Origin: an uncultured Pelagibacteraceae bacterium | GTDB lineage: Bacteria > Pseudomonadota > Alphaproteobacteria > Pelagibacterales > Pelagibacteraceae | Direction: 5' to 3' | Assembly: GCA_902604065.1 (NCBI GenBank) | Contig: CACKXF010000011.1 | Location: 1 to 39,846, forward strand | Length of the DNA: 39,846 bases | Shown here: piece after piece, positions 33,812 through 38,950 of the stretch | How the letters are laid out: each line of letters opens with the position of its first letter | Position numbering within the stretch: position 1 is the first letter of the stretch | Made by a program: the position numbers and the translations under genes | The notes under the pieces: model-generated | The model's database searches: none | What the model saw: the letters and a program-made list of their open reading frames with translations, nothing else | Told to the model about the DNA's origin: nothing

Positions 33812-33817
33812 CAATTT

Positions 33818-33907
33818 GAGGTTGGCATCAGGTGGATATTTCATCAACCCGGTCAGGTCTGAAAAGAAGCAGCCGTAGTGAAAATTATTCAGGTTGTTGC
33901 CTGCCTC
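33818..33907 (+). ncRNA. ffs: Bacterial small SRP RNA (4.5S)
   Basis: Domain IV core GGTCAGGTCTGAAAAGAAGCAGCC at about 33851-33874; outer 5' GAGG..GGCA pairs with TGCC..CCTC; located directly upstream of dnaX. Confidence 0.93.
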
Positions 33908-33914
33908 TTAAAAA

Positions 33915-35915: not shown

Positions 35916-36520
35916 TGGATAATAATATTCTAGAAATCGATGAGTTAATTAAACAATTTTCTAAGCTACCAGGGCTTGGGCCCAAATCAGCTAAACGAAT
36001 AATCTTAAAACTAATTAATAATAAAGACTCAATGATTAAGCCATTAACAAAATCTTTAGCTAATGTTTATAAAAATGTTGTCAGATGTAATGACTGTGGA
36101 AATTTAAAGATAATTGATAAAAATTGTATTTGTAAAATTGAAATGAATTATAACAAAATATGTGTTGTGGAGAATTTGGCAGACATGTGGGTTATAGACT
36201 CAGCCAGTATATACAAAGGCTATTTTCATATTCTCGGAGGAACGATTAGTTCTAATGAAAATTATGATAAAAAAAATCTATTAATAGACTCTTTGATTGA
36301 CAGAATAAAAAAAAATAGTTTAGAGGAAGTAATTATTGCCACTAGTGCAACTGTTGAAGGCCAAACAACTGCACATTATATAGAGGATTTAATAAAAAAT
36401 GATAAAATAAAAATTACTAAATTAGCTCAAGGTTTACCTGTTGGAGGAGAAATCGAACAACTCGATGATGGAACTTTGTTTTCAGCGTTCAAAAATCGTG
36501 TGCCAGTTAAGAAAATTTAG
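35915..36520 (+). CDS. recR: Recombination protein RecR
   Basis: [23 protein letters not shown]; Cys-rich zinc finger; [22 protein letters not shown]-type [10 protein letters not shown]. Confidence 0.95.
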
Positions 36521-38682
36521 AATTCTTTTTTTTTAATTCTTTTTTCATGAAGAAGCGGCTCAGTATAACCTGATGGTTGAACTCTTCCTTTAAAAACGAG
36601 GTCACAAGCAGCTGAGAAAGCAATTGAATTTTCAAAGTCTTTTGACATTTTTGTATATCCCGACCTACCACTTCGATTATATGCTGGATCTTTATCATTT
36701 TGTTCATCTACTATTGTTGCCATCTTTTTCATTACTTTCATCACCTGTTCTTTTGTACAAATGTTGTGGTGCAGCCAATTAGCTATATGTTGAGAAGATA
36801 TTCTTAAAGTAGCTCTATCTTCCATTAAACCAATATTATTGATATCAGGCACTTTAGAACAACCTACACCTTGGTCAATCCACCTTACTACATAACCCAA
36901 AATACCTTGCGCGTTATTTTCAAGTTCTCTATTGATATCTTCAGAGGACCAATTAGGTCTATCCGCTTTAGGTATGTTTAAAATATCATTTAGTTTAGCC
37001 TTTGCTCTAGAACGAATTTTGTCTTGTTCAACAAACACATTTACTTTGTGATAATGCATTGAGTGCAATGTCGCAGCGGTAGGCGAAGGCACCCAAGCAC
37101 AATTAGCACCCGATTTTGGGTGTCCAATTTTTTGCTCCATCATGTTTCCCATTTGATCAGGCATAGCCCACATGCCTTTCCCAATTTGTGCCTTACCTGA
37201 AAAACCGCACTCTAAACCAATATCTACGTTCCAGTTTTCATAAGCGTTAAGCCATTTAGATTTTTTCATTTCACCTTTAAAAATCATAGGACCAGCCTCA
37301 AATGAGGTATGCATTTCGTCTCCTGTTCTATCTAAAAAACCAGTATTTATAAATACAACTCTATTTTTAACTTCTCTTATACATTCTTTTAAATTCACAG
37401 TAGTTCTTCTCTCTTCATCCATTATCCCTACTTTGAGAGAATATTTTTTAATATCTAATGCTTCTTCAACTTTTCCAAACAAGGTATTTGTGAAAGCAAC
37501 TTCTTCTGGACCATGCATTTTTGGTTTTACAATATAAACAGAGTTAGTTCTGGAATTTTTTTTATTTTTAAAATCGTGTAAAGAACAAAGAGAAGCTACG
37601 TAAGCATCCATTATACCCTCAGGTATCTCTGATCCATCTTTTAATATTATTGAAGAATTGGTCATTAAATGGCCAACGTTTCGATTTAATAATAAAGCCC
37701 TTCCATGTAAAGTAATTTTATCTCCATCTTTAGAAATATAATTTCGATTAGGGTTTAATTTTCGAATAAATTTTTTTCCATTTTTTTCCATATTAGCGGT
37801 CAAATCACCTTTCATCAGACCCAACCAATTTCTATAACATTTTACTTTATCTTCAGCATCAACTGCAGCTACTGAGTCCTCATTATCAATAATCGTAGAA
37901 ATAGCAGACTCCATGACAACATCGGATATAGATGCTTTATCTGATTTTCCAATTATATGATTTGGATTAATTAAAATATCTATATGAAGATTATTATTTT
38001 TTATTAATATTGAATCTGGAGCATTTTTTTCTCCTTTATAACCGATAAATTGTGCTTTATTTTCAAGATTATTTTCTTTCTCATTTGCAAAAAAAACTAA
38101 GTCTTTATTTTGTATTTTAATTTTTGTTACTTCTTTCCAACTTAAATTTGAAATGGGCGCTATTTCATTTAAAAAATCTCTAACATAATTTATAACTTTA
38201 GCTCCTCTTTCAGGATTATAGCCTGTACCTTTATCTCCTGAGATAACATCTGTTCCGTATAAAGCATCATATAAACTGCCCCAACGAGCATTAGCAGCAT
38301 TTAAAGCATATCTAGCATTGTCCACTGGAACTACTAGTTGCGGTCCTGCAATAGAAGAGATTTCCTCATCCACATTAGAGGTCTCAATCTTAAAACTTTC
38401 TTTTTCTTCAACTATATATGAAATTGATTTTAAAAATTCGGTATATTTTTTTTGGTCAAATTCTTTATCAGAATTATTTTTATGCCACTTGTCGATTTTA
38501 TCTTGTATTAACTCTCTCTTTTCAATTAATAATTTATTAATAGGCGCAAGTTCATGAACATCTTTTTCAAATTTTTTCCAAAAATTATCTGAATTAATGT
38601 TTGTACCTGGGATCACTTCTTCATTAATAAAATCAAATAGAGCTGAGTTTATCTGAAGTCCATTTTTGTTAATAATATTCAT
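36517..38682 (-). CDS. glcB: Malate synthase G
   Basis: [89 protein letters not shown] at 38682 is more likely than the TTG at 38691. Confidence 0.96.
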
Positions 38683-38699
38683 ACGTACCAATCTAACAC

Positions 38700-38837
38700 C
38701 CCATCTGTATTGGTACCTGAGAGATTTGCTCCTTCGGTGAGATATTATCTCTTTCCAGAATTATTTTTGCACGGTCCTTTTGCCTGAGAGTTTCCGGGGT
38801 GGTTGCTCCTTCGGCGCTGTAAATACAGTCTCTCCCG
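38700..38837 (-). promoter_or_regulatory. Tandem glycine riboswitch upstream of glcB
   Basis: Minus strand: GGGAGAGACTG...GCGCCGAAGGAGCAACC...GGAAACTCTCAGGCAAAAGGACCG (aptamer I) then CTGGAAAGAGA...TCACCGAAGGAGCAAATCTCTCAGGTACCAATACAGATGGGG (aptamer II); both contain the CCGAAGGAGCAA and CTCTCAGG cores. Confidence 0.95.
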
Positions 38838-38950
38838 TTTTTTTATATATTTTGGACTTTTATAAAATTAAAGTCAATTATTTATATCAACCTCAATATA
38901 AATTAATTAATTAAATTCTAATAAAACGGGAATTATGATATGTAACAATC

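Follow-up and report, generated by a model that had tools for sequence, protein, structure and literature searches.

The presence of a glycine riboswitch upstream of the SAR11 glcB gene has been in print since 2007 (PMC2211319), and its glcB/accA locus is listed in PMC2704228; the riboswitch itself is therefore already published, and malate synthase G is a known SAR11 target. The switch is "glycine-activated" in the title of Tripp 2009 and is said to modulate mRNA translation (PMC2864753), while the glcB transcript of HTCC7211 starts 162 nt upstream of its initiation codon (PMC5069720). With regard to the coupling of such a sensor to its gene, the gcvT switch of Neisseria gonorrhoeae (PMC13104608) seems to be a close experimental precedent: its OFF state pairs aptamer 2 (P3a, P3, and P1) with a stretch before the start, and its expression without glycine rose when the aptamer 2 pocket or the bases immediately ahead of the start codon were mutated.

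The locus considered in our study lies in a window of 39,846 nt, i.e., the whole stretch of DNA analysed, from an uncultured Pelagibacteraceae bacterium whose closest named records are SAR11 single-cell genomes and MAGs, and shares with the published SAR11 glcB riboswitch (PMC2211319; Tripp 2009; PMC2704228) the sensor, the gene, the glcB/accA order, and the tandem aptamers. As in N. gonorrhoeae, the OFF state is predicted to pair the second aptamer with the stretch before the start. However, the N. gonorrhoeae switch, which was experimentally tested, belongs to another gene in another bacterial class and features a 62-nt spacer between P1 and the start and an overlap with an sRNA target, whereas the window switch is known from sequence and folds. 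Glycine-controlled masking of a ribosome site is known as a kind; our analysis adds the platform proposed for this genus and the way in which it differs from the other one.

The tandem riboswitch and its gene

The glcB gene (36517 to 38682, minus strand) was assigned to malate synthase G by the NCBIfam equivalogs NF002825 (1190 bits) and TIGR01345 (1082 bits, over the cut-off), and accA is its divergent neighbour. The ATG at 38680 to 38682 (minus strand) was preferred as the start codon over an upstream TTG at 38691, which is in frame in the window and well spaced from a GGGGUG stretch, because many homologs (those of the type of L009) have this TTG in another frame. Upstream of the gene, two glycine aptamers match RF00504 above the gathering score of 32 bits: aptamer I (38762 to 38847, minus strand) with 64.3 bits and aptamer II (38695 to 38768, minus strand) with 47.2 bits. 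The window-wide cmscan lists aptamer I and not aptamer II, since they share 7 nt and are members of one clan. The helices of aptamer II were assigned by hand against the Rfam consensus, with P1 formed by UCUG (38759 to 38756) and CAGA (38707 to 38704), P3a formed by ACC (38738 to 38736) and GGU (38717 to 38715), and J3/1 corresponding to ACCAAUA. Judging from the conserved cores and from the literature, the window riboswitch presumably binds glycine.

The transcript start equivalent to that of HTCC7211 would fall at 38844, close to where aptamer I starts and to a TTGACT-17-CAAAAT pattern that resembles a promoter (38849 to 38877, minus strand), matches to which are no commoner than in shuffled sequences. 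Elsewhere in the window, a bacterial small SRP RNA (33817 to 33911, 57.6 bits) was found immediately before dnaX.

The P3b loop of aptamer I contains CACCCC (38796 to 38801, minus strand), complementary to the GGGGUG that follows aptamer II (38697 to 38702, minus strand), and the two stretches could represent the 5' and 3' halves of a P5 pseudoknot. This pairing is likely, as suggested by two-sided changes among the leaders, from ACCC/GGGU to UCCC/GGGA (L139 and L140) and to GCCC/GGGC (L020), although a few leaders retain only part of it. According to the part of PMC13104608 that cites Torgerson 2020, ON switches often have a P5, and among aminomethyltransferase glycine riboswitches its share amounts to 66%.

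An inverted repeat at the glcB start

Between aptamer II and the start codon, we could recognize a perfect 8-bp inverted repeat on the minus strand, formed by GTACCAAT (38716 to 38709) and ATTGGTAC (38692 to 38685), with a loop of 16 nt, in which the 3' half of P5 lies, and a gap of 2 nt to the glcB ATG (38682 to 38680). The arms, their coordinates, the 2-nt gap, and the overlap with aptamer II, all claimed in the initial annotation, are exact in the window sequence. In what we interpret as the OFF helix, the 5' arm GUACCAAU (38709 to 38716, minus strand) comprises the last two nucleotides of the P3a 3' strand and most of J3/1 of aptamer II, and the 3' arm AUUGGUAC (38685 to 38692, minus strand) includes a TTGGT motif.

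Inverted repeats of 8 bp with loops of 3 to 40 nt are common in the window (79, of which 17 have at least 3 G/C per arm). When the start region was shuffled, a Watson-Crick match of 8/8 to the 5' arm occurred in 0.05% of the trials, and an 8/8 match to any 8-mer of the tested 59-nt stretch of aptamer II occurred in 1.9%. On this sequence basis, the probability that the helix arose by chance at the given place is small, and the convincing part is its comparative conservation.

For this comparison, glcB leaders were gathered from the genomes of the genus, about 100 genomes of the family, and 80 named loci, and further members of the genus were added by means of an aptamer II pattern. The helix is kept in all 23 of the riboswitch-bearing glcB leaders found in the genus. 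In the alignment of the 21 distinct leaders, 98.2% of the helix cells pair, versus 23 to 57% when the register is slid by 1 to 3 nt, and the three rows with a deviation lose the loop-closing pair only. Four of the eight pairs are invariant, and the other four show one-sided variation (U-G/U-A, A-U/G-U, A-U/G-U, and U-A/U-G), with no two-sided compensatory change in the arms among these 21 leaders. As to the covariation that the initial annotation had proposed to look for in homologous leaders, the pairing is kept in 23/23, but strict two-sided covariation is absent. Since the changes are one-sided, a column-shuffle control does not separate the helix pairing from chance, and the support rests on the contrasts across groups. 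In fact, when the 5' arms of the glcB leaders of the genus are combined with the glcB start regions of the same genus, at least 7 of the 8 positions match in 100% of the combinations, while only 0 to 4% of the combinations match when either partner is crossed with gcvT or with the glcB of the sister genus g3. Furthermore, for the arm duplex, mean energies of -11.0 kcal/mol (z, -4.2), -1.7 kcal/mol, and -3.7 kcal/mol were obtained in glcB of the genus, gcvT of the genus, and g3 glcB, respectively. Taken as sequence comparisons, these data support the proposed expression platform.

Predicted masking of the ribosome site

The 3' arm contains a Shine-Dalgarno-like GGUA (38686 to 38689, minus strand), replaced by GGUG in most homologs, which was recognized by its match to the 3' end of 16S rRNA (GGATCACCTCCTTTCT, taken from a member of the genus and standing in for that of the window genome). 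GGUG matches CACC of GGATCACCTCCTTTCT and is adequately spaced from the AUG, and the duplex with the 16S end amounts to a weak -2.9 kcal/mol for the GGUA of the window and to about -5.2 kcal/mol for the GGUG homologs. This match, together with the absence of compensatory double changes from the arms, would be in line with a conservation of TTGGTGC as a ribosome-binding site alone, the complementarity of the 5' arm being an accident of shared ancestry. We consider this explanation very improbable. TTGGT occurs within 20 nt of the ATG in 23/23 riboswitch-bearing glcB leaders but in only 3/71 riboswitch-less leaders of the window's genus, and it follows that the 3' arm is not merely the constant ribosome site of glcB; two of the three riboswitch-less leaders with TTGGT (L007 and L010) come from a lineage in which a remnant of the 3' end of aptamer II can be recognized. 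Moreover, the J3/1 of gcvT in the genus is free to vary and lacks such complementarity, and the glcB set covers deep GlcB branches, with loops of varying length.

Because the 5' arm coincides with the end of P3a and most of J3/1, the helix and the bound form of aptamer II are mutually exclusive; the homolog alignment and the in silico folds bear out the competition with aptamer II claimed in the initial annotation, the pairing of the arms excluding that of the P3a 3' strand and J3/1. The comparison of folds with and without aptamer constraints, also proposed there, gave the expected outcome in 23/23 leaders, in which the ribosome site is masked when the RNA is free and more open when it is constrained. 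In segments without aptamer I, the mean probability that the ribosome segment is unpaired ranges from 0.00 to 0.20 in the free RNA and from 0.23 to 0.71 with aptamer II enforced (23/23), values that describe secondary structure alone, without tertiary structure, ligand, or order of transcription, and that are biased by the enforced structure. In these segments, the OFF fold is favoured by 5.3 to 10 kcal/mol without ligand. As for the masking of the start claimed in the initial annotation, the ribosome site (GGUR upstream of the start) is masked in silico, but the AUG is mostly open in the model, which suggests that the masked element is mainly the ribosome site, a better name for it than the start codon.

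In full-leader folds, which likewise describe secondary structure alone, the mean probability of the helix is 0.97 in the window and 0.03 to 0.99 in the homologs, and in 12/23 homologs, all of the GGUG type, it does not exceed 0.60; in most of these 12, the ribosome segment pairs with the P3b loop of aptamer I equally or more often. It is possible to imagine, in this respect, that the OFF masking is exerted by the aptamer I loop CAACCACCCC and that the local helix is secondary, given that this partner is favoured in the full-leader folds of several GGUG-type homologs (P, 0.4 to 0.96) and that a 9-mer from the CAACCACCCC stretch tops the duplex-energy ranking in many of them. We regard such an arrangement as unlikely: the pairing is unfavoured in the window (P, 0.00), the C tract has another likely partner in the GGGG after aptamer II (P5), and the CCACCCC loop, being identical in gcvT and in g3 glcB, cannot explain arms that are specific to glcB of the genus. 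According to the full-leader folds, the ribosome site would be mostly masked whichever the partner, and energy alone does not single out a unique OFF partner. The whole-leader fold energy was discarded as evidence of significance, the full leader showing no extra stability with respect to shuffles (z, -0.05).

A search for an intrinsic terminator (a hairpin with a T run) at the glcB leader found none, in agreement with the absence of a U tract noted in the initial annotation. An action of the hairpin on transcription, by way of intrinsic termination, pausing, or Rho, and not on the access of the ribosome would have a parallel in the terminators generally known from glycine riboswitches of Bacillota, but it appears extremely improbable for a leader devoid of a T run or terminator-like site, where the helix ends only 2 nt from the AUG; in addition, glycine riboswitches of Pseudomonadota are mostly translational (PMC12452182).

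We are thus fairly confident that a translational ON switch with masking of the ribosome site is the best reading of the locus. Without glycine, GUACCAAU, which comprises the P3a 3' end and J3/1 of aptamer II, would pair with AUUGGUAC, which would hide the ribosome-binding segment 2 nt from the glcB AUG and prevent the translation of malate synthase. Upon glycine binding, the 5' arm would remain part of the aptamer II fold and leave the 3' arm accessible to the ribosome, with contacts of aptamer I and the CCCC/GGGG pseudoknot (P5) probably assisting this state. We infer a response to glycine, its ON direction, and a control at the level of translation, whereby glcB would probably be translated only with glycine present; the ON direction fits the published description of the switch as glycine-activated.

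Other proposed platforms and the probable loss of the switch in SAR11

A second tandem glycine riboswitch of the genome (G000:C9:25963-25807) lies before gcvT, a gene named from its conserved N terminus and from the literature. Like glcB of the window, gcvT of the genus has tandem aptamers and a start region paired with aptamer II sequence. However, different from glcB, the J3/1 helix is absent, and the start region AGAGUUAUUA pairs over 10 bp with UAAUAACUCU, which corresponds to the linker and the 5' strand of aptamer II P1; 99.6% of the cells of this helix pair, with a mean of -15.6 kcal/mol (z, -5.8). The 10-bp helix was seen at G000:C9:25963-25807 and in L005. A helix of this type was also tried as a candidate in the riboswitch-bearing glcB leaders of the genus and rejected as weak (mean, -4.7 kcal/mol; z, -0.5).

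In g3, by contrast, glcB itself features a helix of the gcvT kind, GCAUAACAC/GUGCUAUGC, with one mismatch (-8.7 kcal/mol; z, -2.6). Thus, whereas the glcB platform of the window involves J3/1 of aptamer II, that of g3 involves the linker and the P1 5' strand; as far as these sequences indicate, the J3/1 helix is not a general SAR11 solution, and the window's genus appears to use a masking partner unlike that of its relatives.

In the GlcB tree, each of the two kinds of helix is confined to a clade of its own (local support, 98% and 100%), with the J3/1 kind on the deepest branches of its own clade and riboswitch-less lineages scattered inside. The simplest reading of these sequences would be that each clade has one platform and that the window's genus has lost the switch more than once, the number of losses not being fixed by this FastTree reconstruction (480 columns, with many open forks). 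We lean, with some reserve, toward a scenario in which two SAR11 genera combine the same glcB sensor with nonhomologous masking helices, the platform having been replaced and the switch having then been lost repeatedly in the window's genus.

SAR11 bacteria are among the most abundant cell groups of the ocean and possess few regulators. The helix offers a concrete and testable account of a possible glycine control over their glyoxylate branch point, and, with two platforms on one gene and many losses, SAR11 glcB provides a natural set in which platform replacement under a fixed aptamer can be studied.

Some riboswitch-less leaders (L007, L010, L175, L195, and L226) retain bits of the 3' end of aptamer II (AGATRGGGT or CAGATGGGT), and L007 and L010 also retain ACCAA...TTGGT, in what looks, from the sequence, like an apparent decay of the switch. 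An Rfam search of L007 for a degenerate aptamer gave no match; its flanking bases resemble a riboswitch remnant. L145 (G341:C27) comes from a genome placed in the window's genus, yet the glcB and riboswitch that it carries resemble those of g3, with which its GlcB also clusters, a case that may reflect either gene exchange or assembly contamination. Finally, in riboswitch-less glcB leaders of the genus (L014 to L032 and many of L182 to L248), a AATRTAATGTAAAGRTCGG-like stretch recurs and stops a few bases short of the ATG; it may be a -10 element that serves a very short leader and took the place of the riboswitch.
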